Part shown: positions 3,313 to 28,993 of the stretch, piece by piece | How the letters are laid out: every line of letters begins with the position of its first letter | How positions within the stretch are numbered: position 1 is the stretch's first letter | Assembly (NCBI RefSeq): GCF_014697475.1 | Contig: NZ_JACJRV010000004.1 | Coordinates: forward strand, 124,001 to 188,000 | Reading direction: 5' to 3' | Source of the DNA: Nostoc sp. FACHB-152 | Lineage (GTDB): Bacteria > Cyanobacteriota > Cyanobacteriia > Cyanobacteriales > Nostocaceae | DNA: 64,000 nucleotides | Notes under the pieces: model-generated | Told to the model about the DNA's origin: nothing | Databases searched by the model: none | What the model saw: the letters and a program-made list of their open reading frames with translations, nothing else | Translations under genes and position numbers: made by a program

Positions 3313-3466
3313 TGCAAATTCTCCAAGTTGGGAATGAGGGAGATGAAGGGATTTAGGAAAACATAAAGGACAATGAAGACTGAGGACTTACACAAAAAAC
3401 TCTCATTCCTCCATGTCCTCTGTGTCTCTGTAGTTAGATTTCCATAACTACGGCGTAAGTTCTATA

Positions 3467-4963
3467 CTACTTTTCTGCTTTATCTACAGAAACGGTTGCT
3501 ACTACCTTATCTACACTAATCATGGCGGTGATTGTTGGTTCAGTCCAGCGAGATAACCAAGCAGGTTGAATACCAAAAATTACAATCAACACAGCTAAGA
3601 CCACAGATGGCAAGCGATCGCTCCAATAAACTCGTGGTAAATTGATTACTTGTTCAGATAAGCGGCCAAAGAAGGCACGGTTCATCAAAATTAGGAAGTA
3701 AACCGCAGTCAAACCTGTCCCAATCATCGAAAGCAATGTTTGCACGGGGAATACAGGAAAACTACCCCGAAAAATGATGAATTCGGAAATAAAACCTACC
3801 ATTCCTGGTATGCCTGCGCTGGCCATTACTCCCAGTACCATCAAGCTACCAATCACAGGTAAACCTCTTTCGGGATTTAATAGTCCTCGAAGAACGTCTA
3901 AATCACGGCTACCAGTTTTCTTGTAAACTACCCCAACCAATAAAAATAACAAGGCAGAAATTAAGCCGTGGCTAATCATTTGCATCACAGCACCCAAGAC
4001 GCTGAGTGGTGTAGATGCTGCCGCCGCTAACAAAACGTAGCCCATATGTCCAATTGAACTGTAGGCTACCATTTTTTTCATGTCAGTTTGAGCGATCGCA
4101 CATGATGCACCGTAAAGCACACTAATTACTGCCCAAGTTGCCAACCAGGGAGCGGCATAACTCCACGCTGCGGGCAACAAATTCATCCCAAATCGCAGTA
4201 AGCCGTAAGTTCCTAATTTCAGCAGTACCCCAGCCAGCAGCACAGAAATCGGTGTTGAGGCTTCAACGTGAGCATCTGGTAACCAAGTGTGGAAAGGAAC
4301 TAAAGGAATCTTGATACCAAAGCCAACTAAAATTCCTGCAAGTAAGAGAAGTTGAGTAGCTAATGGTAGAGATTGAGCATTTAAGTTTGCTAAGGCAAAA
4401 TTAGAGCCGCCACTCAGCCAAACCATCCCCAGGAAGCTGGACAAAATTAAGATCCCAGATAAGGCAGTGTAAATCAAAAACTTCGTAGCAGCGTAACCTC
4501 TTCTCTCACCACCCCAAATAGCAATTAACAGATATAGGGGAATCAGTTCTAGCTCGTAAAACAAGAAAAATAGCAGTAAATCCTGAGCTAGAAACGCTCC
4601 AGTTACTCCAGCACTTAACAGCAGTATCAGTGAGTAATAAAATCGTGGACGTTGTATGGAGCCATCGCTACTCGTAATCGCAATACAAGTCAACAGTCCA
4701 TTTAAAACCAGCAACGGCAAAGATAAACCATCTACTCCCAGGTTATAACTTAGACCTATTGCATCTACCCAAGGTAAGAACTCGCTAAACTGTTGAGTAA
4801 TTTCGCCTGGGTTGAATTGGATAGCTAGAAAAACTGACCATAAAAAACCTAGACTGGCAAACAAAAAAGCTACTTTACGGGCAAGCTTGCCGTCAAGAAC
4901 AGAAGGCCAGAAACCGATTAACGCCGCACCCAAAAGTGGCAGCAAAATTAACGCACTCAGCAT
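3467..4963 (-). CDS. ndhD4: NDH-1 subunit NdhD (NdhD4 type)
   Basis: This is an antiporter-like membrane subunit of NDH-1, homologous to complex I ND4/NuoM. The 498-residue product has about 14 TM helices and the proton-channel motif with WLPDAHVEA (HTWLPDAHVEASTP, about residues 228-240). The conserved segments FLFYELELIPLYLLI (with the channel Glu) and KMVAYSSIGHMGY are also clear. It lies between ndhF and cupB on the same strand, the arrangement of the CO2-uptake module rather than of respiratory ndhD1/D2. I call it D4 because cupB-like rather than cupA-cupS genes accompany it. That subtype is inferred from context. Confidence 0.85.
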   Translation of the reverse strand: MLSALILLPLLGAALIGFWPSVLDGKLARKVAFLFASLGFLWSVFLAIQFNPGEITQQFSEFLPWVDAIGLSYNLGVDGLSLPLLVLNGLLTCIAITSSDGSIQRPRFYYSLILLLSAGVTGAFLAQDLLLFFLFYELELIPLYLLIAIWGGERRGYAATKFLIYTALSGILILSSFLGMVWLSGGSNFALANLNAQSLPLATQLLLLAGILVGFGIKIPLVPFHTWLPDAHVEASTPISVLLAGVLLKLGTYGLLRFGMNLLPAAWSYAAPWLATWAVISVLYGASCAIAQTDMKKMVAYSSIGHMGYVLLAAAASTPLSVLGAVMQMISHGLISALLFLLVGVVYKKTGSRDLDVLRGLLNPERGLPVIGSLMVLGVMASAGIPGMVGFISEFIIFRGSFPVFPVQTLLSMIGTGLTAVYFLILMNRAFFGRLSEQVINLPRVYWSDRLPSVVLAVLIVIFGIQPAWLSRWTEPTITAMISVDKVVATVSVDKAEK

Positions 4964-5108
4964 ACACAGTATTGAGGAAGAAGAGGGGAGGTGAAGGGGA
5001 CAGATGACAGGTGACAGAGATGGGTGATTTGATATATGGCTTTTTGAAGAAAATTTGTACTTAATTCACCTGTCATTTGCTGTAGCTTGTAAATCAGCAC
5101 TAAGACTT

Positions 5109-6965
5109 TTAGAAATGCAAGTGATCTAAAAGTCCTAATGACCAGCTGATAAAGAAACCTAGGACACTAACTACCGCAAGGATAGTTAACATATATCCTT
5201 GAGATTGACCAGAAATGCTATACCTTAAACCTTGACCGCCGAAAATAGTCGCAAAGCCGACTAAGTTCACGAAACCATCTACTAGGTAGCGATCGCTCCA
5301 AGCAGATATTTTAGATAGCAGGGCAACTGCGCTCACAACTGTCAAACGGTATATTCGGTCAATATAAAAGTCGTAACCCAACAAATCTTGCACAAACCGC
5401 CACGCCAAAATTCTGGATCTTGACCAAGCTTTGTGTAAGTACATCGTAGATCCAATACCTACTCCTAAGATGGTAGAAGCAACTAGTATAGAAACTACAT
5501 ACCAATCAATACTTTCCCAAGCGGGTAATAAATACCATTGTTGAAGCATTAACGGTAATAGTAGGCTCAATATTGTCAATGTCACCATTGGGAATGCCAT
5601 CTGCCAGCCAACTTCCGGCGCACGTCGGGTTTTTTGTTGCGGAGAACCCCAAAATACTAATCTGAACACCCTGGTCAAGTTTAAAGCTGTCAAGCCATTA
5701 ACTATCACTAAAACTGCAATTACCCAAGGACTGACTCTTACTAAACCATCAGCCCAAGACAGCATTGCCCAAAAGCTGCCTAGTGGTAGCAGTGTAATCA
5801 TCCCAGCTGAACCGACAACAAAGGCGGTGGTAGTAGCAGGCATTCGTGACCATAGACCACCCATTTCTGTTAAATCTTGGCTATGGGTGGTGTAGATAAT
5901 TGAGCCAGAACTCATAAATAATAATGCTTTGGCGATCGCATGGGTTAACAGCAGCATCAAAGCCACACCACCTTGCTGCAAACCCACCGCCAAAAACACC
6001 AGCCCCATGTATGCACTTGTAGAATGGGACAACGCCCGTTTAATATCGATTTGTGCTATGGCCACCAATGTCGCGCCAATTGCTGTCACCGTCCCCATGA
6101 CAATCAAAACATTCAAAGTCACTGGTGATAGTGCCAAGATTGGTTGGACTTTGTACAGTAAGTAAGCACCACCAGCCACCACCAAAGAATTCCGCATTAC
6201 AGAAGCCGGGTTTGGCCCTTCCATCGCTTCATCTAGCCACAGATGCAGGGGAAACTGAGCGCACTTACCAGCCGGCCCAGCAATTAAGGCTAATCCTAAT
6301 AAAGTTGAATTAACAGGACTTAAATTAGCTGTTTGCGCCCACTCATATAAATCAGAAAAGTTTAAACTGCCCGCTAAGGTAGAAAGTGATACAACACCCA
6401 TCAATAGCATCAAATCTCCCACCCGCTTGGTTAAAAAGGCATCTCTTGCGGCGGTGACTACCAAAGGTTGAGCGTACCAGAATCCAACCAGCAAGTAGGT
6501 AGATAGGGTAAGAACTTCTAATAAGGCATAGCTGAGAAACAGAGAATCACTAATAGCTAGACCGCTTAAGGCTGCTTCAAAAAACCCTACTAAAGCAAAA
6601 AAGCGTGCTAACGACCAATCCTTTTCCAGATATCCTAGGGCATAAATTTGGGTTAACAGACTTAATCCTGTGACAAAAACTGTTGCCCCAACACTCACTG
6701 GTGAGATTTCTAAAGCAATGGATAAATTTAAATCTGCTGCTTGGAACCAAGTAATCAGCAAACTTTCTGGTTCTCTATCCCAAATGTCTTTAAAAACAAA
6801 TAAGCTATGAGCAAAAGCCAAAAGGGTTGTCAACAAGTTCAGATATGCTGCTGGTCTAGGTCCTGTACGTCTGATGATTCCTAGCCCCCACGGCAATGTC
6901 AAAATAGCGCCTATCAAGCTATAAAAAGGCACCCACCAACTTGTTGAAAATAGAAATTGATTCAT
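5109..6965 (-). CDS. ndhF4: NDH-1 subunit NdhF (NdhF4 type)
   Basis: NdhF (ND5/NuoL homologue) is the distal proton-pumping subunit, and in the CO2-uptake NDH-1 it contacts the Cup protein. The 618-residue product is highly hydrophobic and shows FPLHLWLDEAMEGPNPASV (about 236-254), the TM-helix 7 motif of the family, then RALSHSTSAYMGL and a lateral-helix-like C-terminus. It is the first gene of the minus-strand ndhF-ndhD-cupB order, with the ATG at 6965, and is transcribed away from ccmK2. The 145-bp gap to ndhD holds no gene. The '4' subtype follows from gene context, not from alignment. Confidence 0.85.
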   Translation of the reverse strand: MNQFLFSTSWWVPFYSLIGAILTLPWGLGIIRRTGPRPAAYLNLLTTLLAFAHSLFVFKDIWDREPESLLITWFQAADLNLSIALEISPVSVGATVFVTGLSLLTQIYALGYLEKDWSLARFFALVGFFEAALSGLAISDSLFLSYALLEVLTLSTYLLVGFWYAQPLVVTAARDAFLTKRVGDLMLLMGVVSLSTLAGSLNFSDLYEWAQTANLSPVNSTLLGLALIAGPAGKCAQFPLHLWLDEAMEGPNPASVMRNSLVVAGGAYLLYKVQPILALSPVTLNVLIVMGTVTAIGATLVAIAQIDIKRALSHSTSAYMGLVFLAVGLQQGGVALMLLLTHAIAKALLFMSSGSIIYTTHSQDLTEMGGLWSRMPATTTAFVVGSAGMITLLPLGSFWAMLSWADGLVRVSPWVIAVLVIVNGLTALNLTRVFRLVFWGSPQQKTRRAPEVGWQMAFPMVTLTILSLLLPLMLQQWYLLPAWESIDWYVVSILVASTILGVGIGSTMYLHKAWSRSRILAWRFVQDLLGYDFYIDRIYRLTVVSAVALLSKISAWSDRYLVDGFVNLVGFATIFGGQGLRYSISGQSQGYMLTILAVVSVLGFFISWSLGLLDHLHF

Positions 6966-7617
6966 TTAATTTGCTTCCCTTGACGACTCAGCCTTGATTT
7001 TTCTCAGATAGTTTTCTAACCATTGTTTTTTAAAAAATCTTGAAAAACTACTGCTTTTAAATTAAATTTTCAACTAAACTAAGAATGAGTATTTTTGACT
7101 TAAATATTTATAATAGAGTTTAAATTTGATTAATTTCCATACTTTGAACCTCCTATTTCCATTAGATAATATTTACCTGTAAATTTCTATTTCTACTTCT
7201 AGCAGATAACTTTATAAGATATATTTGAAAAAATTATATAATTTCTATGTATCCTTGTTTACATACAGCAAAATAGAGGAAAGATGGAGACAGTAACAGA
7301 TACAGCCTTTTATCATTCCTCGCCAAGCAGAATTAGTCTTGGTTATGAACTGCGTTTTGTATATGTAATAAAGAAATTATAAAGCATAAGTGCCTGCTCT
7401 TGGAATGAGTAGATTTCAAGCGAGCAGAATCCTGAGATCACAAATTATTAAGTTTTTTAAAACTTTTTTATTATAAACTATTATACTAATTTATATTGCC
7501 AGGGGAGCCAAGCTTTCCTATGCTTAATTTGGAAGTGTCTTTTAGCTCAAGATGAGCTTCCCCGTCGAAATTTTCAAACCACAGTACTGATTGGATTAAT
7601 TTTTAGGAGTTTCTGCG
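6966..7617. promoter_or_regulatory. Divergent control region between ndhF4 and ccmK2
   Basis: These 652 bp contain no plausible ORF and are very AT-rich. They must hold the promoters of both the CO2-uptake module (leftwards) and the carboxysome operon (rightwards). TATACT at 7482-7487 is a possible -10 element for ccmK2, though no good -35 sits 17 bp upstream, which would fit activator dependence. AGGAG just before 7610 is the ccmK2 ribosome binding site. A LysR regulator gene lies at the other end of the ccm operon and is the natural candidate to act here. Confidence 0.55.
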
Positions 7618-7926
7618 ATGCCAATTGCAGTTGGAATGATTGAGACTAAGGGCTTTCCAGCAGTAGTAGAAGCTGCTGATGCGATGGTGAAAGCCGCCAG
7701 GGTAACTCTGGTAGGATATGAAAAAATTGGTAGCGCTCGTGTCACCGTCATTGTGCGGGGTGATGTTTCCGAAGTGCAAGCCTCAGTCGCAGCTGGAATT
7801 GAAGCGGCAAGAAGAGTAAATGGTGGTGAAGTGGTTTCCACTCACATCATTGCGCGTCCCCATGAAAACTTGGAATACGTATTGCCAATTCGTTACACCG
7901 AAGCTGTAGAACAGTTTCGCACTTAA
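7618..7926 (+). CDS. ccmK2: Carboxysome shell hexamer protein CcmK2
   Basis: CcmK2 is a BMC-H protein whose hexamers tile the facets of the beta-carboxysome. The 102-residue product is one complete BMC domain: [22 protein letters not shown], then the pore region with [20 protein letters not shown], and the C-terminal [16 protein letters not shown]. The KIGS pore motif is intact. It is the first ccm gene, the usual place of ccmK2, and is shorter at its C-terminus than the following paralogue. TAGGAG lies upstream at a suitable distance. The K1/K2 names follow gene order and length. Confidence 0.95.
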
Positions 7927-8015
7927 AAACTGATAACAAAAACTAAATGACGGGGTTGCTTGCTTGGGCTACGCTTTTATTTTGCTTGAGAAACATTAAT
8001 TAGGGATTAAAACTA

Positions 8016-8363
8016 ATGTCAATTGCAGTGGGAATGGTAGAAACGCTTGGCTTTCCAGCAGTAGTAGAAGCTGCTGACGCAATGGTCAAAGCTGCGCGTG
8101 TAACTTTAGTAGGTTACGAAAAAATCGGTAGTGGTCGGGTAACAGTAATCGTTCGAGGTGATGTCTCAGAAGTGCAAGCTTCTGTAGCAGCAGGTGTTGA
8201 ATCAGTTAAGCGAGTCAATGGTGGACAAGTGCTATCTACACACATCATTGCGCGTCCCCATGAAAACTTAGAATACGTCCTGCCAATTCGTTATACAGAA
8301 GACGTAGAACAATTCCGGGAAAATGTCAACGCAATTCGACCTTTCGGCGGCAGAAGACCATAA
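8016..8363 (+). CDS. ccmK1: Carboxysome shell hexamer protein CcmK1
   Basis: This is the second BMC-H facet protein, nearly identical over the whole domain to the preceding CcmK2 ([18 protein letters not shown] pore region). It has a longer C-terminal tail ([14 protein letters not shown]), the feature that separates CcmK1 from CcmK2. Length is 115 residues. It starts 90 bp after ccmK2, and ccmL follows after 6 bp. K1 and K2 can form mixed layers, so the tail difference may matter for layer stacking. Recent tandem duplication is evident. Confidence 0.95.
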
Positions 8364-8369
8364 CATATA

Positions 8370-8672
8370 ATGCAAATTGCCAAAGTACGTGGCACAGTAG
8401 TTAGCACTCAAAAAGATCCAAGTCTTCGAGGTGTGAAACTACTGCTGTTGCAATTAGTGGATGAAGAAGGAAATACTTTACCACAATACGAAGTAGCAGC
8501 GGATACTGTGGGAGCAGGAGTAGATGAGTGGGTGCTGATCAGTCGTGGCAGTGCCGCTCGTCAAATTCTTGGTAACGAACAACGCCCTTTGGATGCGGCA
8601 GTAGTGGCGATAATTGATACTATTCATGTTCAAGATCGCCTTATTTACAGTAAAAAAGACCAATATAGATAG
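8370..8672 (+). CDS. ccmL: Carboxysome vertex pentamer protein CcmL
   Basis: CcmL (BMV family) forms pentamers that cap the twelve vertices of the icosahedral shell. The 100-residue product begins MQIAKVRGTVVSTQKDP and contains LLLLQLVDEEG and the turn VGAGVDEWVLISRGSAAR, the conserved core of CcmL/EutN proteins. Length is typical. It sits 6 bp behind ccmK1, so translation is probably coupled. The stop codon merges with a triplicated 14-bp repeat. Confidence 0.95.
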   Translation: MQIAKVRGTVVSTQKDPSLRGVKLLLLQLVDEEGNTLPQYEVAADTVGAGVDEWVLISRGSAARQILGNEQRPLDAAVVAIIDTIHVQDRLIYSKKDQYR

Positions 8673-8880
8673 TCATTAGTCAAAAGTCATTAGTCAAAAG
8701 TCATTAGTCAATCAGCTATGGACTATTGACGATGTACCCTTCGGGTTCGCCAGTTGCTTCAGTCGGGAAACCCGACGACAGTCGCTTCAAGTCGGCAAAG
8801 CCGCCCACAGCGCTGTCTCCCCAACGCACTGGCTCACTATTGACTATGGACAAAAAGCTTAATTCAGGAGGAATCTTGCG
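8672..8880. repeat. Dispersed intergenic repeats between ccmL and ccmM
   Basis: Two full copies and one partial copy of the 14-mer GTCATTAGTCAAAA lie at 8672-8710. They are followed by a GC-rich module (about 8736-8840) with the inverted piece TCGGGAAACCCGA and the string CCAACGCACTGGCTC. Similar text (CGCACTGGCTTCTC) reappears near 61330. This is a typical mobile intergenic repeat of filamentous cyanobacteria, not a gene. AGGAGG close to 8868-8873 is the ccmM ribosome binding site. Confidence 0.6.
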
Positions 8881-10551
8881 ATGGCAGTCAGCAGCACGGC
8901 GGCACCCCCAACCCCGTGGTCAAGAAGTTTAGCTGAGCCAGAAATCCACGAAACCTCATTTGTCCACTCTTTCTCTAACGTTATTGGAGATGTGCGAGTA
9001 GGTGCAAATGTAATCGTTGCTCCAGGGACTTCGATTAGAGCAGATGAAGGTACACCCTTTTACATAGGTGAAAATACCAACATCCAAGATGGTGTAGTGA
9101 TTCATGGGTTGGAACAAGGCCGAGTCATTGGTGATGATGGCAATGAGTACTCGGTATGGATTGGTAGTAATGTTTCCATTACCCACATGGCTCTGATTCA
9201 TGGCCCAGCTTATGTAGGGGATAATTGCTTTATTGGCTTTCGCTCCACAGTTTTTAATGCCAGAGTGGGTTCGGGTTGCATCGTCATGATGCACGCTTTA
9301 ATACAAGATGTAGAAATTCCTCCAGGTAAATATGTACCTTCGGGAGCGATAATTACAAGCCAACAGCAAGCTGACCGTCTGCCAGATGTGCAAGACCAAG
9401 ACCAGCAATTTGCTCATCATGTAGTGGGAATTAATCAAGCACTGCGGGCTGGTTATCGCTGTGCTGCGGATAGCAAATGCATTGCACCCATCCGGGATGA
9501 ATTAGCTAAATCTTATACAAGTAATGGTGTCACTGTTTTAGAGTTAGAAAGGAGTAGTGAAGTGGCGAGCAATAGCTTGGGTGCAGAAACAATAGATCAA
9601 GTGCGCTATCTATTGGAGCAGGGGTATAAGATTGGTACAGAACACGTAGACCAAAGACGCTTCCGTACTGGTTCTTGGACTAGCTGCCAGCCAATCGAAG
9701 CCAGATCTGTGAATGAAGCTTTATCAGCGTTGGAAGGCTGTCTATCAGAACACAGTGGTGAATACGTGCGTTTATTTGGAATTGACCCCAAAGGTAAACG
9801 TCGGGTGTTAGAAACGATTATTCAACGCCCGGATGGTGTGGTAACAGCAGGAGCTAGCTTTAAAGCACCAGCTAGTACAGGTAGTGCTAGCTACAGCAGC
9901 TATAACGGTAATGGTAATAGTAATGGTGCTGGGATTGGTTCAATTAGTGCTGAAACTGTAGACCAGATCCGCAAGCTGTTAGCTGGTGGTTACAAAATTG
10001 GTACAGAACACGTAGATGAGCGTCGTTTCCGGACTGGCTCTTGGGCTAGCTGTAAGCCTATAGACGCGACTTCGGCTAAGGACGTTGTGGCTGCGTTAGA
10101 AGAATGTATTGGCAACCATCAAGGTGAGTATGTCCGCTTGATTGGTATTGACCCGAAAGCCAAACGCCGGGTATTAGAAAGCATTATTCAAAGACCTAAT
10201 GGCCCAGTTGCCCCCTCTAATGGTCAAAAAACTTATCCTAGTTCAAGTATTTCTAGCTCACCAAAAGCAACTGCAACTGCTAGCAGCAATCGCTTGAATG
10301 CGGAAGTTGTAGACCAACTACGGCAATTACTGGCTAGTGGTTATAAAATTAGCGCGGAACACGTAGACCAAAGACGTTTCCGGACTGGTTCTTGGGCTAG
10401 CTGTGGACAAATTGAGGCCCGATCTGAAAGAGATGCGATCGCAGCTTTGGAAGCATACCTATCTGAATATCCTGGTGAATACGTGCGGTTGATTGGCATT
10501 GACCCCAAAGCCAAACGCCGTGTGTTAGAAACAATTATTCAACGTCCATAG
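8881..10551 (+). CDS. ccmM: Carboxysome assembly protein CcmM (gamma-CA plus three SSUL repeats)
   Basis: CcmM nucleates the beta-carboxysome by cross-linking Rubisco and, in some species, is its carbonic anhydrase. Residues 1-210 are a left-handed beta-helix gamma-CA domain with the zinc ligands H75, H102 and H107. The C194/C200 pair ([10 protein letters not shown]) is known to form the activating disulfide. Three Rubisco-small-subunit-like repeats follow at about 232-318, 354-440 and 472-556, each with RRFRTGSW and EYVRL-GIDPK. Glycine/serine/asparagine linkers join them. All active-site residues are present, so this copy is probably catalytic, like that of Nostoc PCC 7120. An internal start at 9562 would give the short M35 form. 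Confidence 0.96.
9548..9564 (+). promoter_or_regulatory. Internal ribosome binding site and GTG start for short CcmM
   Basis: AAAGGAG at 9548-9554 is followed after 7 nt by GTG at 9562-9564, in frame with ccmM (codon 228). Translation from here gives a 329-residue protein with only the three SSUL repeats, about 35 kDa. CcmM is known to be made as a long and a short form by internal initiation. The site seen here is placed exactly between the gamma-CA domain and the first repeat. Confidence 0.7.
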
Positions 10552-10556
10552 TGAAA

Positions 10557-10591
10557 GGGAGTAGGGAGTAGGGAATAGGGAATGGGGAATA
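10557..10591. repeat. STRR-like heptamer repeat, five units
   Basis: Five consecutive heptamers of the form GGGAGTA/GGGAATA/GGGAATG run from 10557 to 10591 between ccmM and ccmN. CCCACTC-rich text about 50 bp further on can pair with them. Short tandemly repeated heptamers of this kind are characteristic of heterocystous cyanobacteria. Confidence 0.75.
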
Positions 10592-10709
10592 GAAAGTAAG
10601 GATAGAAATGAGAATTTTTTCACCACTCACCCTTAACATTCACAACTCCCCACTCACAACTCCCCACTCTCTCATAAAAATTTGTCCGGCTTCCGAGGTT
10701 TAATTTTCC

Positions 10710-11456
10710 ATGTCTGTGCCGCCACTGCGCCTCCACAATAACTTTGACCCTTATATTAGTGGCGAGGTGAATATTCATCCCAGTGCAGTATTAGCACCTG
10801 GTGTAATACTCCAAGCGGCTACCAACAGCAGAATCATTATTGGCCCTGGTGTCTGTATTGGTATGGGGTCAATTCTCCAAGTCAATGAAGGAACCCTGGA
10901 AGTAGAAGCAGGTGCTAGCCTGGGAGCCGGTTTTTTGATGGTCGGAAGGGGAAAGATTGGTGCTAATGCTTGTATTGGGGCAGCCACAACAGTTTTTAAC
11001 TGTTCTGTGGAACCGGGAACAGTAGTACCACCAAGCTCAGTGTTAGGAGATACTAGTCGTCAGATGAGTGTTTCCCAACCACAAAAACCACCCGTCAATA
11101 ATACTGCTTCTAATAACACCCAACAGCAAGAATTAGAGAGTAATCATTTAGGTGGAAATGAAGAAAAAGTAATTTCTATTTCCTCAACGAATCTTTCAAC
11201 TTCGGCTTTCTTGGAGTTAAAACACCAGTCTGTTTCTGTTACTCAACCTTCGCCTACACCGTCTGCACAACCACCCCCAGCCCAAAAAGATGAAACTGCT
11301 GCGAGTTCTAATGACCTAAGTGCAGAAAACCCTGAATCTTCTGATATTTTTGGAACTCAAATTTATGGACAAGGGAGTATTAACAGGCTGTTAACGACGT
11401 TATTTCCCCATAGGCAATCTTTGAATAATCCTAAGTCTGACGAACCGCCGGAATAA
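10710..11456 (+). CDS. ccmN: Carboxysome assembly protein CcmN
   Basis: CcmN bridges CcmM to the shell. The 248-residue product has an N-terminal left-handed beta-helix of hexapeptide repeats (about residues 15-115, with VNIHPSAVLAPGVIL and IGANACIGAATTVFN). A long Pro/Ser/Gln-rich disordered linker (about 118-215) follows. The C-terminal amphipathic segment YGQGSINRLLTTLFPHRQ (about 222-240) is the encapsulation peptide known to dock onto CcmK2. It follows ccmM after a 158-bp repeat-rich gap and precedes ccmO. Confidence 0.93.
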   Translation: MSVPPLRLHNNFDPYISGEVNIHPSAVLAPGVILQAATNSRIIIGPGVCIGMGSILQVNEGTLEVEAGASLGAGFLMVGRGKIGANACIGAATTVFNCSVEPGTVVPPSSVLGDTSRQMSVSQPQKPPVNNTASNNTQQQELESNHLGGNEEKVISISSTNLSTSAFLELKHQSVSVTQPSPTPSAQPPPAQKDETAASSNDLSAENPESSDIFGTQIYGQGSINRLLTTLFPHRQSLNNPKSDEPPE

Positions 11457-11640
11457 GTGTTAATTGTAAGTTGTCCTCTAAAGTATGAAATATGAAGTAT
11501 GAATTATGAAGGATGTAAAAAATGATTTCATCCTTTATGCTTGATTCTTCAGCCTTTCAGTTTCAACTTTTAGCCTACCTTTGGGAAAGCTGCTAAAAGG
11601 GCATTTACATCATTGACTGTGAGTATCCTGGAGAATTCAC
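11457..11640. other. Repeat-bearing spacer between ccmN and ccmO
   Basis: The spacer has near-tandem TATGAA-type text and an imperfect inverted repeat, ATGAAGGATG (about 11502) against CATCCTTTAT (about 11530). GAGAATTCAC leads into the ccmO ATG. The hairpin could attenuate read-through into ccmO. No ORF is present. Confidence 0.35.
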
Positions 11641-12444
11641 ATGGACACATATAATCAACAGTCCCTTAGCACTGTTCGGGCAGCATCGCATCGGCGAGAT
11701 AGAGATAGCTTCAAGGATACTGCCTTGGGTTTGGTATCTACTCTCAGCTTTCCAGCAATAGTTGGAACTGCTGACATGATGTTGAAATCAGCTGGGGTTC
11801 ACCTAGTTGGATATGAAAAAATTGGTAGTGGTCATTGTACTGCCATTGTTCGGGGTGGCATTGCGGATGTACGCCTAGCTGTTGAGTCAGGTGTACAAAC
11901 TGCTGAACAGTTTGGTCAGTTGGTTTCTAGTTTGGTGATTCCTCGCCCTTTCCCTAATCTGGATGTGGTGCTGCCCATCACCAATAGATTAAGTAAATAT
12001 ATGGAGGAGGGTAGTTATAGCCGTCTGAGCAATTTAGCCATTGGATTGGTGGAAACGCGGGGGTTTCCGGCGATGGTAGGGGCTTGCGATGCTATGCTTA
12101 AATCTGCTGATGTGCAGTTAGCAGCTTATGAAAAAATCGGTGCGGGTTTGTGTACAGCCATTATTCGTGGCTCTGTTGCTAATGTCGCAGTAGCAGTGGA
12201 AGCTGGGATGTATGAAGCAGAACGCATTGGGGAATTGAACGCAGTAATGGTAATTCCTAGGCCTTTGGATGAGTTAGAACAAACCTTGCCTGTCGCAAGT
12301 TGCTGGATAGAAGAACGGCAACCAGTGAGGATGCCAGTGAATATTAAAGATAAGGAGCAAGTGGCGGAATTAGAGGTACTCCAGTTGCCAGACTTGGCTA
12401 AGTTACCTGCAAAAGTGACCGAAGAATTATGGAATGATGAATGA
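11641..12444 (+). CDS. ccmO: Tandem-BMC shell protein CcmO
   Basis: CcmO is a double-BMC (BMC-T) protein thought to form pseudo-hexameric trimers in the shell. The 267-residue product has two BMC domains: about 27-115 (LGLVSTLSFPAIVGTADMM to IPRPFPNLDVVLP) and about 130-220 (IGLVETRGFPAMVGACDAM to IPRPLDELEQTLP). The pore-region motifs are YEKIGSGHC and YEKIGAGLC. An N-terminal basic stretch and an acidic C-terminal tail flank them. Length is near that of Synechococcus CcmO. Here it is the last gene of the ccm run, as in Synechococcus 7942. Confidence 0.92.
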   Translation: MDTYNQQSLSTVRAASHRRDRDSFKDTALGLVSTLSFPAIVGTADMMLKSAGVHLVGYEKIGSGHCTAIVRGGIADVRLAVESGVQTAEQFGQLVSSLVIPRPFPNLDVVLPITNRLSKYMEEGSYSRLSNLAIGLVETRGFPAMVGACDAMLKSADVQLAAYEKIGAGLCTAIIRGSVANVAVAVEAGMYEAERIGELNAVMVIPRPLDELEQTLPVASCWIEERQPVRMPVNIKDKEQVAELEVLQLPDLAKLPAKVTEELWNDE

Positions 12445-21952: not shown

Positions 21953-22342
21953 ATGGCTGTTAGCACTAAAAATAGACGAAAGCTTCTAATTAATAATCGT
22001 AGATTTGTTTGGTATATCAGAGATGACGCTGATTCGGCTTATTTTGTCCTACACGTAGTTTCTGAAGACAAAAATTTCATTGTTGCTTATCATTTACATC
22101 AACCGGAATCAACACGTTATTTAATTATCCTTGGCAAAGAATTTCCTGGCTTATCCGATGCAGGTGGTAATTGGATTCGTGTAAGCTGTCCACAATGGGA
22201 GACGAATTCTATTATTACGCCAGCGTCAGTGCGTTGCCTAATTGAATGGTGTTTTCTTGATAACAAAGAATTAATTCGTGTTAACTGGTTAGGACAACCT
22301 ATTGCAAGACCAAAGAAGTTATTAGAAACTAACACAGTCTAG
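21953..22342 (+). CDS. Conserved hypothetical protein
   Basis: The 129-residue product has no signal peptide or membrane segment. It has a mixed alpha/beta composition (RFVWYIRDDADSAYFVLHVVSEDKNFIVAYHL, then NWIRVSCPQW and SVRCLIEWCFLDNKELIRVNW). The aromatic, Trp-rich pattern is protein-like and codon use fits its neighbours. It lies 72 bp after xisI on the same strand, and its stop overlaps the convergent hydrolase gene by a few bases. I recognise no family and infer no function. Confidence 0.6.
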   Translation: MAVSTKNRRKLLINNRRFVWYIRDDADSAYFVLHVVSEDKNFIVAYHLHQPESTRYLIILGKEFPGLSDAGGNWIRVSCPQWETNSIITPASVRCLIEWCFLDNKELIRVNWLGQPIARPKKLLETNTV

Positions 22343-23205
22343 CCAATAACTTTTGTTTCGGTTAGTAAGTGCTGTTCTAGCCAAGTCTCCAAATCAGATA
22401 GCACTTCTTGATAATTAAGATCATCTTGAAGCTCGTGATAAGCTTCAGGATACTCAATTCTTGTTTTATCAGCAAAAGTTACTTGCTCATAAAAAACTTT
22501 GCTGCTTTCTGGTAGTGTTACTCGGTCTGCACCACCATGAAGAATTAACAATGGTAATTGCCATTCAGCAGCATGGTTATTCACCCAAGCAACTGTATCT
22601 AAAAACTCTGTAGCTAAACGCGCCGTTCCTAAAGTATGTCGCAACTTATCTTGGGCGTATGCGGCTAAAACTTTCTCATCCCTCGCACCAGCAGCTAAAT
22701 CAAGTCCTGTATTCAAGCTGAAGCGCGGCCATATTCGTGACATCAATTGTCCGATGAGTAATTTGACTTTTGGTACACCAACTTTGCCTAAACTTGGTGC
22801 TAAAGTAATTACACCTTGCAGCACAGCAGCTTCTTGGGGATAACGCAAAACGTAGTCTAAGACAACAACTGAGCCTAAACTATGCCCTACAAGAAAAATT
22901 GGACATTTTGGCTGCTGGGTTTGGACTAAATCTAAAAATGTTCGCAAGTCTTCTCGAAACTCATCCCATGAGTTGATATAACCCCTCTGTCCAGGTGAGT
23001 GTCCATGACCGCGCATATCAAAGGTATAGATAGCATATTGTTTGGGAATAAAATGTTGGACTATATTATTGTACTTGCTACCGTGACCGCCCAGTCCATG
23101 CACCATAACTAATATTGCTCTGACATTACCTTGTGGTTGCCAACTTTGATAATACAGTTCAAGTTTTCCAACACCCTGAAATGTGCCTTCGCTACGGTCA
23201 ATCAT
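22339..23205 (-). CDS. Alpha/beta hydrolase, monoacylglycerol lipase-like
   Basis: This is a serine hydrolase of the lysophospholipase/monoglyceride-lipase (Hydrolase_4) group. The oxyanion motif is VHGLGGHG (36-42), the nucleophile elbow GHSLG has S109, and the acid is D227 (HGGADRVT). The catalytic His is H257 (EAYHELQDD). The early FDMRGHGHSPGQRG block is characteristic of the family. Length is 288 residues and no signal peptide is seen, so it is cytosolic or membrane-peripheral. It faces away from plsC with a 126-bp shared upstream region, and both encode lipid-type enzymes. Confidence 0.88.
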   Translation of the reverse strand: MIDRSEGTFQGVGKLELYYQSWQPQGNVRAILVMVHGLGGHGSKYNNIVQHFIPKQYAIYTFDMRGHGHSPGQRGYINSWDEFREDLRTFLDLVQTQQPKCPIFLVGHSLGSVVVLDYVLRYPQEAAVLQGVITLAPSLGKVGVPKVKLLIGQLMSRIWPRFSLNTGLDLAAGARDEKVLAAYAQDKLRHTLGTARLATEFLDTVAWVNNHAAEWQLPLLILHGGADRVTLPESSKVFYEQVTFADKTRIEYPEAYHELQDDLNYQEVLSDLETWLEQHLLTETKVIG

Positions 23206-23331
23206 AAAATTTACTTTTGATGGATGAGTTTCTCAGCTAATTACTATCTAATCAAGGTACATTGTAGGGAAAATTTATTCTTATAACTCCGGATGGGTCA
23301 ATAAAATCCGATCGCACACTATGATTAGGGC

Positions 23332-24261
23332 ATGAATTCTTCTAACCATCAGTCAGATAGTTTGCCGTCCTTGGATGCTGCCGCTATTAAGCGAGTTAAA
23401 GAAGGTGTAGCAGCAGCAAGCGATCGCACCGTACATTATACAATTGAACAAGCACTGACTCGCTTAGAAGCAATTAATCAAGGACATCTAGAACACCTAG
23501 TTAATGGTAGTGTACGACGGTTTGTATTGCGATCGCTCATTCATATACTATTCAAAGTCCGCGTAGAAAATATTGAACGTTTACCGCAGACATCAGCAAT
23601 TCTCGCCGTCAACCATCTCCACCACATCGACCCCTTGCTGTTGTTGGCAGAACTCCCCAGCCAGCCCTATTACTATATTTTGGGCGATGCTCGCACTCTC
23701 TACAACAAATGGTGGAAGCGGTTCATTTTAAGTTTTGCCGGAGGTGTCATTCCCTTAGCGCGGTTGTGGAAAGAAGAAGTCGCTGTGATGGAAGCAGCCA
23801 AGGCTGGAAGACAAGACTTAGCAGAATTAGCCGCAGCTATTGAACAAGATGTGCCTTCCGGCAGTGATATCCAGACATTGCGGCAAATAGACCGCATTGT
23901 TCTGCGAATTTTGGCTCGCAAAGACGGAATGATTCTGTTTCCTGAAGGACGGTTGGGAAACAGTGAGGGTAAATTGCATCTTCCTCTCAAGCGAGGAACT
24001 GTGATATATGCCTTACGCGCTGGTGTACCAATAGTACCAGTAGGATTAATTGGTACTCATGACCTTTATTTCCGAAAAGAGTTAACTATTCGCTTTGGTG
24101 AACCGTTACATTTTGCACCAAATGCGAAAACTACTCGAAAAGAAGTAGAAATTGCTGTAGAGGCTTTACAAAATGCCATGATAGCTCTGTTGCCAGCTGA
24201 CTATCAAGAACCAACAGGAACAAAGCTGCTACGTTACTTTCTTAACCATATGTTGTGGTGA
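23332..24261 (+). CDS. 1-acyl-glycerol-3-phosphate acyltransferase (PlsC family)
   Basis: PlsC-type acyltransferases add the second acyl chain in phosphatidic acid synthesis. The catalytic HX4D motif is H95-D100 (NHLHHIDPL), the substrate motif is FPEGR (203-207), and VPIVPVGLIG (about 232-241) is the fourth block. A 75-residue N-terminal extension and an insertion of about 40 residues (EVAVMEAAKAGRQDL) distinguish it from minimal PlsC, so a related acyltransferase with another acceptor is possible. It is divergent from the hydrolase gene. Confidence 0.85.
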   Translation: MNSSNHQSDSLPSLDAAAIKRVKEGVAAASDRTVHYTIEQALTRLEAINQGHLEHLVNGSVRRFVLRSLIHILFKVRVENIERLPQTSAILAVNHLHHIDPLLLLAELPSQPYYYILGDARTLYNKWWKRFILSFAGGVIPLARLWKEEVAVMEAAKAGRQDLAELAAAIEQDVPSGSDIQTLRQIDRIVLRILARKDGMILFPEGRLGNSEGKLHLPLKRGTVIYALRAGVPIVPVGLIGTHDLYFRKELTIRFGEPLHFAPNAKTTRKEVEIAVEALQNAMIALLPADYQEPTGTKLLRYFLNHMLW

Positions 24262-24975
24262 TATAGCAATCTTACTTAATTTACAAACTAGTCGTGGAGA
24301 CAGGCAATAGCCAATAGATTTGTTTGGATCTAATTTAAGTTTGCTATAGCAATTGTTAATTCGTTATTGAAATCTTGTCTTCAATATTAGTTAAGTTAAC
24401 TAATGCTTTATAGCTGATTATTTGGGAATTTTAGCATAACTGCGATCGCAAAACCATTTCTACAATCTGATAGTCAAGATTAAGTACAGAAAGATAACCC
24501 TCCTAAGATAGAATTTTAGGATTTTTATATGTAAGTAAACTAGTTTGCACGCGCTAAGACTCACAGTGAAATGTATAATAAATTAATACATATGAAAGCC
24601 TGAATATCATGCACAGTAATGCATTCAACTCTTACTACCTGACTTTTGTATCTCAATTTAAATATAAGTTCAAAACAAAGTTATTTCCTAAGACAGATAA
24701 CTTTTTGCCACTAATCATTATCTAAAGGTTGCATCAAAAATTTAATCATATTTTTATATTCAGCATAATTTTTATCAATCTCAAAAGCTCTAGTATAAAG
24801 CAGCGAATAATAGTACAATAAAATGTTAATTGCTGCTTGTAGTAATTAACACTTCACTAACTTCCATTTGGCGGTTATTAGTCCATATAAACTGACAAGT
24901 TTAAGGTTTGTTTCCTTTAACTTTGTAGTTTACACTACCCAAAAAACTGAGCAATTTACCAAATATCAAGGAATA
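24262..24975. other. Long spacer upstream of the exported cluster
   Basis: No ORF of note is present. The spacer contains a near-perfect palindrome at 24386-24404 (listed separately). A weak terminator-like hairpin TCCTAA-loop-TTAGGA followed by TTTTT (24501-24526) may end plsC transcription. The remainder is AT-rich, and the promoter of the 24976 gene must lie in its right half. Confidence 0.4.
24386..24404. promoter_or_regulatory. 19-bp palindrome (possible operator)
   Basis: ATTAGTTAA at 24386-24394 and TTAACTAAT at 24396-24404 are exact reverse complements around one G. The size and symmetry suit a dimeric regulator. It lies 3' of plsC and about 570 bp before the next gene, so the controlled gene is not obvious. 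Confidence 0.35.
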
Positions 24976-25203
24976 ATGTTGAAACGTCGTGCAATACTAG
25001 CTGGTCTATCTTTACTTAGCTTAACTTTGGTTGTAAGTACAAAAGTGTACGGGCAATCTACTAGCGGGCCAGAAGCTTGGGAGACTGTCTACAATAATGC
25101 GGTTGCTGGGGCAACAACAACAATTACAGTTCCACTTTTGAGTCCCTTGTTATCATTTATCCTGCAAATAGTCTACAATTTAGCAGGTTTTTGGGGCGGT
25201 TAA
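24976..25203 (+). CDS. Small exported hydrophobic protein
   Basis: From ATG 24976 (AAGGA at 24968-24972) the product is 75 residues. It has a signal peptide of LKRRAILAGLSLLSLTLVVSTKVYG type with a likely cut near residue 26, then a short polar segment (TSGPEAWETVYNNAV). A hydrophobic C-terminus rich in Thr/Leu/Ile ends FWGG. An in-frame start at 24868 would bury the signal peptide and is rejected. I recognise no family. It is 183 bp before the secreted gamma-CA-like gene on the same strand and may share its job. Confidence 0.55.
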   Translation: MLKRRAILAGLSLLSLTLVVSTKVYGQSTSGPEAWETVYNNAVAGATTTITVPLLSPLLSFILQIVYNLAGFWGG

Positions 25204-25386
25204 TTCTTTGTCTCATTCTTAACAAAGAAAGAGTATAAATAGAGGCTTTTGCAGTGTGATTTTTTGGTAATTTATACGCCTGCATAGATGCTTTGCGTCT
25301 TGTCGCCAGACATTGCCTGACTCTAATTCTTGAATGCAGATTTTCTTATAGCCAAATATTTCATAGCCCGTGAGGAGCTTTTTTCT

Positions 25387-26667
25387 ATGTTCAAACCTCG
25401 CGCAATTTTTCGCGCCTTAGTTGCAATTACCCTAGCATTTGTCATCAGCACACAGCTATATATACAACCCGCCTTTGCAGTTGGCGGAACTTGTAATCCA
25501 ACGGCAGGTAACCTACCTATTTGTCCAAATACTGCGCCTTCAGAGTCAGCTAGTTTCGTTGACCCAACTGCAACGGTAAACAATCCTACAAATATTACCT
25601 TGGGCGAAAAAGTCTACGTCGCCCCGTTTGCCGAGTTAGATGCTACTAATGCACCCATTAGCATCGCGGCTGATTCTAATGCTCAAGACCAAGTGAAAAT
25701 TCTAGCCTCCGGAACGGGAGTTGAGATTGGCGAGCGTGTGATTATGGCACACATGGCCGTAATCAAAGGTGCAGCTAAAATCGGTACTCAAGGTTCAACT
25801 GGGCCTTTTACCGACCCAAATACTAATACTCAGTTCAGCAACACTATTCCAGAGACATTTCTCGCCTTCAACTGTGAAATAGATGGTGCAACTATAGAAA
25901 GAAACACAGTAGTTAACTTTCTCGCACGGGTTGGCCCTGGTGTTACCTTACCTGCTGGTAAAGTTGTATTGCCTGGTAAAAACGTCACCACTAACCTACA
26001 AGCTAATAGCGGCAGTTTAGGGAAAGTAGTAAACCTAACACAAGCAGACGTTGCATTAATGGAAGGTATCATTGAAGTTAATGAAGCATTTGCCAAAGGT
26101 TATACAGACTTAGCCAGGGCAGACCTGACAAAGGTAAAAGGGATAAATGAAGCTCCTAACACCTCTTTTAACTCTGGAGGTCTGCCGCAGATAGGTGGAA
26201 GTCCGACTCGTGATCCTAACTATCGTAACCGCATTATCGGCAACATCACTTTCCAAGATTCTTTAGCAGACCTCAAAAATAAACTAGCTAATAGAATTTC
26301 GCTGCGTGCAGATGAAGGTGAACCTTTTAATGTTGGGTCAATTGCTGGGATGGCAAACGATGTTGTCTTTCACGCTTTAGAAACAACTAGTTTGACTCTT
26401 GGTAATGGGATTGGTTATGGGCCTCGCGCTCTAGTTCATGGCGGTAGGCAGATTGTCGGTGGTGTTGCTAATGGCCCTGAAACCAGCGTAGGTAATGATG
26501 TGGGGCTAGGTCCGAACTCCGTTATCTTCCGTGCCAGCATTGGCAACAACTCAGCACTTGGGCAAAGAAGCGCAGTCTTCAATTCTACAGTACCTGCCAG
26601 AACAGCGATCGCTTCTCGCACAATCTATGCCGACAACGGCAGCATGATTTTACCTGTGGAGTGGTAA
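25387..26667 (+). CDS. Secreted double gamma-carbonic-anhydrase-like beta-helix protein
   Basis: The product is 426 residues from ATG 25387 (GAGGAG upstream; an ATG at 25330 would precede the signal peptide). Residues 1-31 are a signal peptide (cut at AFA/V). Residues about 56-245 resemble the CcmM gamma-CA domain, including GEKVYVAPFAEL and a CcmM-like helix EVNEAFAKGYTDLARADL. Residues about 302-420 are a second beta-helix aligned with CcmM (SLRADEGEPF, VVFHALE, ALVHGG). Compared with the CcmM zinc ligands, the N-half keeps only the middle His (H122, AHMAVIKG). The C-half keeps the first and third (H329, H351). The protein should act outside the plasma membrane, but catalysis is unproven. 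It could instead be a structural beta-helix. Confidence 0.7.
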   Translation: MFKPRAIFRALVAITLAFVISTQLYIQPAFAVGGTCNPTAGNLPICPNTAPSESASFVDPTATVNNPTNITLGEKVYVAPFAELDATNAPISIAADSNAQDQVKILASGTGVEIGERVIMAHMAVIKGAAKIGTQGSTGPFTDPNTNTQFSNTIPETFLAFNCEIDGATIERNTVVNFLARVGPGVTLPAGKVVLPGKNVTTNLQANSGSLGKVVNLTQADVALMEGIIEVNEAFAKGYTDLARADLTKVKGINEAPNTSFNSGGLPQIGGSPTRDPNYRNRIIGNITFQDSLADLKNKLANRISLRADEGEPFNVGSIAGMANDVVFHALETTSLTLGNGIGYGPRALVHGGRQIVGGVANGPETSVGNDVGLGPNSVIFRASIGNNSALGQRSAVFNSTVPARTAIASRTIYADNGSMILPVEW

Positions 26668-26680
26668 TCAATTTGGCATG

Positions 26681-27190
26681 ATGATGAAAAGATTGATTCT
26701 GCTGTTTACTTTGATATTTGGACTGGTACTAAGTTTTGATGACAGTTCATCTATAGCTGCTGACATCTCCGTCAATCAGCCTCAAGTGGTACAACCTCCA
26801 ATCACCGGACTTGTTTCTACATTGTCGGATGAGGTCGAGGAATTACCAGCAGAGTTAATTCGCTGGTCAACATACTGGCAACTTTGCTGGGAACCGTATC
26901 CCGAAGCTAAAGAATACGAACTACAAACTGTGCTTGTGGAGGGGAAATCTCCCAAGTTAAAACGCCAAAGCGATCGCTGTTTTCGTTTACAAGCCGCATC
27001 TAATGAAAACCAAAAATCACAAGGATTACTCAACCGGGAAGTAATCTTGTTGATGCATAAGATTCAGCTTGGTTATCGAGTGCGCGCCGTCTTAGATAAC
27101 AATCGCGTCAGTGAATGGTCTGAAGTAATGGCAGTAGGTGCAACTACTGCCTCTGAATCAAATGGTACTAATATCAGTCTAAATCCTTGA
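26681..27190 (+). CDS. Exported protein with fibronectin-III-like domain
   Basis: The ATG at 26678 or 26681 opens about 169 residues. The signal peptide is MKRLILLFTLIFGLVLSF..SSSIAA with a cut near residue 26. The mature part has WQLCWEPYPEAKEYELQTV, FRLQAAS and YRVRAVLDNNRVSEWSEVMAVG, the strand pattern and conserved Trp/Tyr of a fibronectin type III-like fold, with two cysteines. It starts 10-13 bp after the gamma-CA-like gene, so the two are almost certainly co-transcribed. The natural inference is an accessory or partner of that secreted protein. The FN3 call is by eye. Confidence 0.55.
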   Translation: MMKRLILLFTLIFGLVLSFDDSSSIAADISVNQPQVVQPPITGLVSTLSDEVEELPAELIRWSTYWQLCWEPYPEAKEYELQTVLVEGKSPKLKRQSDRCFRLQAASNENQKSQGLLNREVILLMHKIQLGYRVRAVLDNNRVSEWSEVMAVGATTASESNGTNISLNP

Positions 27191-27540
27191 TACTGGTTTT
27201 GGGGCATAGCTAATCGAATAGTGGCGTGACTGGACTAAAATGTTGCATTATGGATTTATTGTGGGATAAGCATCCAGCCTGTCCGGTGCGGGCAAGATGC
27301 CCACACCACAAGAGTTAATTTATGCACTATCTTAAGGCGGTCACGCTACTACTCTTTTTAAGACATACTTTCGGAAACGCTGCGTACCCATCATATTGAG
27401 GGTTCGCGGTTATAGCCTGGAGATGAAGACCTCGACAGTGTTCCCTTTGGCGCGATTAAAAAGAAGTTTATCTTTAAGATGCTGAAAAATTAATCCCACC
27501 AGAAATAAAGATTGTTATTGGAACGAAGACCCTCAGCCAA
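27191..27540. other. Spacer with a dispersed repeat and short coding debris
   Basis: GGTGCGGGCA (27285-27294) and TGCCCACACC (27298-27307) form a hairpin with one mismatch, a common Nostoc intergenic repeat. From 27416 to 27493 one frame reads 25 residues (DLDSVPFGAIKKKF) before a TAA, with no start. It may be the end of a lost gene. Nothing else is evident. Confidence 0.4.
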
Positions 27541-28130
27541 TCACTCCAAAGAACCACAACCTTGGTCTACAATATCAGGACAAAACTCATACATACTTTT
27601 TGCTAGTCCTTCAGGGTCTTGAATGGGTGTGAGAAAACGACCTTCTAGAGTATCGTGGGCAATAATAGTCAAAACGAAAGGCTGTGTAGCTTCTAGTTCT
27701 CGCAACCATTGCACTACATAACCAGGGCCAACACCATAATTACAACCATTTGTTTGATGTAAGGCAACAACATCATATTTATCAGTGGTTGGCACAATAC
27801 ACAGTTGTTTTGGCCCTTCTGCGTTCTGGCTGCTTGTTCTAGCGGGCTACCAGAGTATGTTGATACGTTAATATTTGAGCCTTTATCAAGCAAAACTTTT
27901 ACAGTTTCTACTCTATTTGTCATCACCGCCCAAACTAGGGAATGTCTGAGAGATGCGTCATCAGCACCAGCTTCAATTAATGCACATTTAATTTCATCAG
28001 GGCCGTAACGGGCGAGTTCATAAGCTGTTTCATCACCTTTCTTGACATTTGGGTTTGCCCCAGCCGCAAGCAATGCTTTGACACGTTCAATATCACGCGA
28101 TTCAATAGCGTTAATTAGCTGTTCATCCAT
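27541..28130 (-). pseudogene. Frameshifted ankyrin-repeat / DUF4253 fusion gene
   Basis: Starting at ATG 28130, the first frame gives three ankyrin repeats (NAIESRDIERVKALLAAGANPN, DEIKCALIEAGADDASL, NRVETVKVLLDKGSNIN). It then runs into out-of-frame text ending at 27714. The neighbouring frame contains a DUF4253 domain down to 27541, with YDVVALHQTNGCNYG and the signature EFCPDIVDQGCG. Reading across with one added base near 27823-27827 gives a smooth join (EQAARN-AEGPKQLCIVPTT). A single-base deletion in a gcc-aga-acg context is therefore likely, either a real mutation or a sequence error. Ankyrin-DUF4253 proteins often act as immunity-type factors, but this is weak inference. Confidence 0.65.
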
Positions 28131-28354
28131 AAAATTTATACCTGTATACTCTGGGCATCTCTAGAGATTTTGCCCATTTAAAGGCAATAAATATTCTGTA
28201 TTAATTTTTTATCTGTAAAATTTTAAACTAGACATTTGCCTAATTTAAAATTAAAGTTTGCTGGGAAGCGATCGCCTTTAATTGATGATGTGGTGGAGGA
28301 GCGATCGCATTCCGATTCTTTACAATAATACTTATACCTATTGTCAGAGGCGAT

Positions 28355-28993
28355 ATGCTTTTAAAACTGCAACAAATTATCGTCAAACCGGGACAACAAA
28401 TGTTGCTCAAAGATATTAGTTGGCAGCAGTTAGAAAATATTTTAGAAGAAATGGGAGATAAGCGTGCTGCACGGATCTCTTATAGTGATGGTTGGCTAGA
28501 AATTATGGTTCCTCTACCTGAGCATGAAAAAGATAAAGAATTAATTGGTGATTTAGTCAAAATTTTATTAGAACAACTCCAAATTGATTTTGAACCTTTT
28601 GGTTCTACAACACTGAAAAATGAACGAATGTCGCAAGCCGTAGAACCCGATACCTCTTTTTATATTCAAAACCAAGCTGCTGTGATTGGTAAAAACCGGA
28701 TTGATTTAAATATAGATCCGCCACCAGATTTAGCAATCAAAGTTGATATAACCTCCCGGACTCGATTTAATAACTATGAAATTTTAGGAGTTCCTGAACT
28801 TTGGCGATATACAAAGCAAGGTTTAGAAATTTTCTTACTCCGGGAAGGGAAATATATTAAATCTCAATCTAGTCCTAATTTTGCAAATATACCTATCATT
28901 GAATTAGTCAATGAGTACGTTCAGCAGTGTTTGACTATTGGTAGAAGTCAGGCTATGCGTAATTTTAGAAAGTGGATAGAGAATAACTTGTAA
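28355..28993 (+). CDS. Uma2 family (DUF820) protein with altered active-site residue
   Basis: Uma2 proteins have a PD-(D/E)XK nuclease-like fold and are numerous in cyanobacteria. The 212-residue product has ISWQQLENIL, YSDGWLEIMVPLPEHE, EPDTSFYI (97-104), DPPPDLAIKVDITSRT (about 121-136) and the end YEILGVPELWRY. The usual text is DLAIEVDIT, where the Glu is an active-site residue. Here position 129 is Lys. The protein is full length otherwise, so this is probably a catalytically changed copy or a recent mutation. The neighbours show no shared function. Confidence 0.85.
   Translation: MLLKLQQIIVKPGQQMLLKDISWQQLENILEEMGDKRAARISYSDGWLEIMVPLPEHEKDKELIGDLVKILLEQLQIDFEPFGSTTLKNERMSQAVEPDTSFYIQNQAAVIGKNRIDLNIDPPPDLAIKVDITSRTRFNNYEILGVPELWRYTKQGLEIFLLREGKYIKSQSSPNFANIPIIELVNEYVQQCLTIGRSQAMRNFRKWIENNL

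Follow-up and report, generated by a model that had tools for sequence, protein, structure and literature searches.

Can a single polypeptide that carries two gamma-class carbonic anhydrase (gamma-CA)-like halves build one metal site out of both? This question is raised by an open reading frame at positions 25387-26667 (forward strand) of the window, by which we mean the whole 64,000-nucleotide stretch of Nostoc sp. FACHB-152 DNA analyzed here. Known gamma-CAs are homotrimers, or mitochondrial heterotrimers in which one surviving site is debated, and Cam of Methanosarcina thermophila is a homotrimer with three sites. The first-pass annotation of the window proposed that the encoded protein, which we call the double, is a fused chain whose metal-binding histidines are shared out between its halves. 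We examined this proposal using the protein itself, its homologues and its genomic neighbourhood.

An exported protein with two gamma-CA-like halves

The open frame begins with an ATG at 25387, with a Shine-Dalgarno-like GAGGAG 9 bases 5' of it, and its stop codon ends at 26667, giving a protein of 426 amino acids with two gamma-CA profile matches. Judged by eye, residues 1-31 (25387-25479, forward strand) resemble a Sec signal peptide, with a basic start, a hydrophobic stretch and the end QPAFA. Two halves follow on the same strand: an N half of residues 54-250 (25546-26136), which retains N98, Q100, D101 and H122, and a C half of residues 256-426 (26152-26664), which retains R307, D309, E310, H329 and H351. 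The place of the frame, the signal peptide (by eye) and the two gamma-CA-like halves all agree with the first-pass annotation. An Rfam scan of 22300-28400 gave no match at gathering score, promoter and terminator scans at the locus yielded no more hits than on shuffled sequences, and a search of phage records with the double returned zero matches.

Scanned with Pfam, the double matched hexapeptide-type repeats only. It scored 74.4 bits against the NCBIfam equivalog model NF040597 (carb_anhyd), far below its 380-bit cut-off, and 60.1 bits against NF053794 (CcmM), again far below its 550-bit cut-off. The Rubisco-small-subunit-like repeats by which CcmM is recognized are missing; a second gamma-CA-like half is found instead, after which the protein ends. 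A search of PDB sequences with the double retrieved Cam and CcmM, and the profile of the double's family matched Cam chains in two stretches, one for each half. The AlphaFold2 model of the monomer (mean pLDDT 69.6, pTM 0.79) was good in the N half and poor in the C half, with ten-residue pLDDT means mostly at 50-66 beyond residue 300. Foldseek and VIA-align found the N half similar to Cam and CcmM, the VIA-align rows spanning residues 29-255. A left-handed beta-helix is indicated for the N half by both its model and its fold matches; for the C half, which is poorly modelled and scarcely reached by the fold search, only the profile match points to it. The N-half model also contains a terminal helix (residues 219-245) with the invariant residues N232 and Y239, and no such helix is present at the end of the C half. 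The double is most simply viewed as a divergent member of the gamma-CAs with a new layout.

Division of the active site between the halves

The whole 426-residue double contains three His only, H122, H329 and H351 (codons 25750-25752, 26371-26373 and 26437-26439, forward strand), which occupy the positions of Cam H117, H81 and H122, respectively, as would follow from a split of the ligands along the gamma-CA subunit division. All three are His in 86/86 aligned doubles (64 subclade I and 22 subclade II rows; 84 distinct over residues 54-420, with identity down to ~26%). The complementary positions L106, K127 and P346 are variable and are His in 0/86 rows each, such that equivalents of Cam H81 and Cam H122 occur in 0/86 N halves and that of Cam H117 in 0/86 C halves. 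The division of the three metal His 2+1 across the interface, by which gamma-CAs are recognized, was found at sequence level in 86/86 rows. Since the three His are retained in every one of the 86 doubles, this ligand pattern exceeds what chance would give. The first-pass annotation was right in its split of the ligands and in its residue calls at all six positions, and the His that it singled out are indeed conserved together throughout the 86 homologues.

As a control, His was found at all three ligand columns within one chain in 19/19 single-domain rows (14 singles and 5 CcmM); the CcmN row (n=1) has no ligand His. The CcmM encoded in the same window carries H75, H102 and H107 in one chain, and the ungapped match between it and the C half, from SLRADEGEPF to VVFHALE, was reproduced (14/29 identical, with an Arg-to-His distance of 22 residues in each). 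The His counts leave out a gene cut by a contig end (L076), one in a split frame (L067), a fragment (L114), the broken second copies (L039/L110, G123, G015 and G559), identical rows and those family-genome doubles that are not among the retrieved loci, and retain as read one gene with a truncated start (L065) and one with a frame broken upstream (L079); L118 and L119 duplicate the genomes of L082 and L083, and a Deinococcus row, read by eye, stands outside the 86. Merging of identical rows reduced 91 rows to 79, and in this set only 18 of the 426 positions are invariant, eight of them being H122, N232, Y239, R307, D309, E310, H329 and H351. An extra His appears at the column of residue 178 in 22/22 subclade II and 2/64 subclade I rows.

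The other active-site residues are divided likewise; we number them as in Cam on the basis of the ungapped match and of the known features of Cam. Equivalents of R59, D61, E62, H81 and H122 are each present in 86/86 C halves (64/64 subclade I, 22/22 subclade II). The N halves hold the equivalents of N73 in 83/86 rows (63/64 subclade I, 20/22 subclade II), Q75 in 85/86 (64/64 and 21/22), D76 in 83/86 (62/64 and 21/22) and H117 in 86/86 (64/64 and 22/22). For each of the gamma-CA residues R59, D61, E62, N73, Q75 and D76, between 83 and 86 of the 86 rows have an equivalent in one of the halves. The opposite sets are rare, with N73 and Q75 equivalents in 1/86 C halves each, and E62 aligned in 8/86 N halves. 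Subclade II is the exception, R59 and D61 being found also in the N half (19/22) and D76 also in the C half (21/22). The equivalent of the proton-shuttle residue E84 is missing from 21/22 subclade II and 10/64 subclade I rows. In the 19 single-domain controls, one chain carries R59, D61, N73 and Q75 in 19/19 rows, and E62 and D76 in 17/19.

According to PMC8000050 (Table 2), R45, D47, H66 and H89 line one side of each gamma-CA interface and are faced across it by Q60, D61, H84 and residues of the terminal helix, an Arg45-Asp61 ion pair bridging the two sides. In our own mapping, these residues correspond to Cam R59, D61, H81 and H122 and to Cam Q75, D76 and H117. The residue sets of the two halves therefore match the opposite faces of one published subunit contact, and one composite site would be expected. 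The presence of a terminal helix in the N half and its absence from the C half likewise fit a single working contact between the C half and the N half. Taken together, the sequence evidence that the halves share one such site is strong. The first-pass annotation had placed a composite site at each inter-half interface; sharing between the halves is borne out by the conservation of the ligands and by the parallel split of the non-His residues, but "per inter-half interface" proved too broad, as the alignment predicts a complete ligand set only where the C-half face (R59/E62/H81/H122) meets the N-half face (Q75/D76/H117). Given the N-half R59 and D61 and the C-half D76 of subclade II, a metal-free second contact may still use the ion pair in these proteins.

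Origin, relatives and a partner gene

In a tree of 66 rows, the N halves formed one clade (support 90/64; 93% of 200 bootstrap trees) and the C halves another (support 99/97; 100% of bootstrap trees), with subclades I and II appearing in both. Long branches meet in this tree, including subclade I of both halves, so that the two clades can be placed only tentatively with respect to one another and to single gamma-CAs. Because the N halves and the C halves show matching subclades, a single origin of the double, predating the divergence of subclades I and II, is most likely. The five CcmM rows formed a clade of their own (100/100) with all N and C halves outside it, and pairwise BLAST of the N half against the C half of the window protein gave nothing (E 2.8), which speaks against the earlier suggestion that the double was derived from a CcmM-like domain by duplication. 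A tie of the double to the ccm genes of the window (2182-12444, where we take the genes to be cupA, ndhD3, ndhF3 and a ccm cluster with ccmM and ccmN) was not supported in the few genomes checked, in which the double and the CcmM match lie on the same contig, far apart (~67 kb in G098, ~156 kb in G136 and ~2.6 Mb in G060).

Close doubles, intact or broken, were found in 53 of 192 sampled genomes of the host's family; 130 of the 192 match at all, mostly via CcmM outside the double-bearers. Of 388 sampled genomes of the host's class, 20 match at E <= 1e-8, with doubles in 16 cases, CcmM-like proteins in three and a split gene in one. At least 48 loci, counting doubles as well as single-domain proteins, were retrieved from genome contigs; they include loci of Geodermatophilus, of Hymenobacter roseosalivarius and of numerous terrestrial cyanobacteria. 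The double is present in 7/96 genomes of a Geodermatophilaceae-side sample (family of G558) and, among 100 genomes sampled around Hymenobacter (family of G559), in G559 only. Plasmid 3 of Deinococcus deserti encodes a double that is annotated "carbonate dehydratase" and in which, by eye, all three His are present. Isolates with a double belong to Cyanobacteria, Actinomycetota, Bacteroidota and Deinococcota, and Geodermatophilus, H. roseosalivarius, D. deserti, Scytonema and Myxacorys are desert, rock or soil-crust hosts. The records that bear the titles Klebsiella, Tepidiphilus, Burkholderiales, Rubrobacter, Actinomycetota and Chloroflexi come from metagenome binning and could be misassigned, possibly including the contigs of three doubles from bins titled Burkholderiales (L074), Tepidiphilus (L081) and Klebsiella (L084). 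Broken second copies of the double occur at L039, L110, G123, G015 and G559:C74, some of them adjoined by partner fragments, and one subclade II double (L067) lies across two neighbouring frames, through a natural split, decay or sequencing error.

Ten bases after the double, on the same strand, lies a gene (26678-27190) for a putatively exported protein of 170 amino acids, whose start resembles, by eye, a signal or lipoprotein peptide. This partner belongs to no Pfam family (no match for 17 members scanned) and has no match among PDB sequences; 17 aligned partners share three invariant Trp and two invariant Cys, and our only impression of its fold is that it looks fibronectin-III-like. It adjoins the subclade I doubles examined, including those of Geodermatophilus, Hymenobacter, a Chloroflexi bin and a Tepidiphilus bin, and lies upstream of the double in Nostoc mirabile. 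The exceptions are one locus with no partner (L084), one with fragments only (L023) and one whose flank is too short (L052); with the longer flank of L046, which holds the same gene as L052, the partner is found ~1.9 kb away. Across the 192 family genomes, the partner is matched at E <= 1e-8 in 52 of the 53 double-bearing ones (Fisher p 2e-43, kinship ignored), and partner fragments without a double occur in two. The partner is also present at 7/7 Geodermatophilaceae-side loci and in 9/11 genomes behind the other loci, the two without it being those of subclade II loci, and none was seen in the flanks, which are short, of subclade II doubles.

Upstream of the double, an open reading frame of 74 amino acids with a signal-peptide-like start (24979-25203, forward strand) is kept in Nostocales loci, and was not found beside non-cyanobacterial doubles. 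We also considered a third gamma-CA-like subunit encoded elsewhere in the genome. The matches there besides the double are presumably CcmM and hexapeptide acyltransferase-like, CamH/YrdA-like and LpxD-like proteins, and none of them has a signal peptide (by eye).

A candidate secreted carbonic anhydrase and its alternatives

On this evidence, the double is probably a secreted gamma-class carbonic anhydrase, constructed as a fused pseudo-heterodimer with one composite metal site shared by its halves. The C half would give one contact face, with two metal His and the catalytic Glu, Arg and Asp, and the N half would give the opposite face, with one metal His, Gln, Asn, Asp and the terminal helix. 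Meeting within or between chains, these faces would form one site that binds a metal and, judging from the export signal seen by eye, interconverts CO2 and bicarbonate outside the cytoplasm. All other faces, their metal ligands lost, would have a role in assembly only, and the partner may assist or anchor the double. Carbonic anhydrase activity is likely. The monomer model, weak in the C half, speaks neither for nor against the contact of the two faces. Points that count against this reading are the absence of the E84 equivalent from most subclade II rows and some of subclade I, the incomplete division of the non-His residues, and the fact that two halves by themselves cannot close a trimer when no exported third gamma-CA-like protein was found in the genome.

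Other arrangements were weighed against this one. It could be imagined that N halves trimerize together and C halves together, the double being an inactive scaffold with no complete site and with relic or structural His. The presence of two halves per chain would fit two such stacked trimers, the C half modelled poorly, and inactive relatives exist, such as CcmN with its row devoid of ligand His. Relics, however, would not be invariant in 86/86 rows with the complementary ligands gone from every one, and the catalytic Glu and Gln are retained too; we consider this arrangement very improbable. It is also quite unlikely that another protein completes the site, whether a separate gamma-CA-like chain or the partner, by filling the third place of a trimer or the missing face. 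Such help would suit the inability of two halves to close a trimer by themselves, as well as the tight linkage of the partner gene to subclade I, but the double already has all the ligands, no further exported gamma-CA-like protein was seen in its own genome, and subclade II doubles have no partner beside them in their short flanks. Finally, the composite site may be real and perform other chemistry, such as the sensing or storing of metal or bicarbonate, or a hydration or hydrolysis reaction of a different kind. The E84 equivalent is mostly gone from subclade II, subclade I has a dedicated partner protein, and some gamma-CA-like proteins are inactive (according to parts of PMC7447434 and PMC8000050). 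Metal binding alone, however, would not need the Glu, Gln, Arg and Asp of the carbonic anhydrase site, all of which are retained, and we regard a different chemistry as unlikely.

The secreted carbonic anhydrase that we favour would have both parallels and differences among known systems. EcaA and EcaB are exported cyanobacterial carbonic anhydrases of the alpha and beta class; an extracytoplasmic carbonic anhydrase is expected in the double as well, yet the folds are unrelated. Cam, which both halves match by profile, has the ligands and catalytic residues that the two halves make up together, but is a homotrimer, whereas the double consists of two fused halves with one face each. The N-terminal domain of CcmM, of the beta-carboxysome, differs in having all three His in one chain, in being followed by the Rubisco-small-subunit-like repeats, and in forming a separate branch. 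A likeness in ligand distribution, which favours our reading, is found in CA1/CA2/CAL of plant mitochondrial complex I, where, as described in PMC7447434, all ligands and Zn density are found at only one of the three interfaces of the gamma-CA trimer. These are three separate mitochondrial chains, whereas the double has two halves in one exported bacterial chain.

The first-pass annotation knew of no described protein of this design. In agreement with this, searches of an open-access library showed no description of the double among their listed results, and passages of PMC13249358, PMC8445988 and PMC4894872 contain nothing on it; the Deinococcus member, however, already bears its carbonate dehydratase annotation, and Npun_F3687 may be either EcaA or this protein. 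A broader proposal, on which we are evenly divided, is that the double represents a dedicated secreted CO2/bicarbonate module of single origin that passed between phyla, apparently in bacteria of deserts, rocks and soil crusts. In this view, fusion of the chains cost the gamma-CA two of its three ancestral kinds of site and left it with one composite site, and the module of subclade I would also include the partner, which would form an undescribed family.

A fused bacterial chain with one kind of composite site would show how interface sites thin out, and would offer a simple soluble system in which to ask whether one site suffices. The partner gene may in turn lead to a new protein family. 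The double itself may point to an overlooked exported carbonic anhydrase in terrestrial cyanobacteria and other bacteria.
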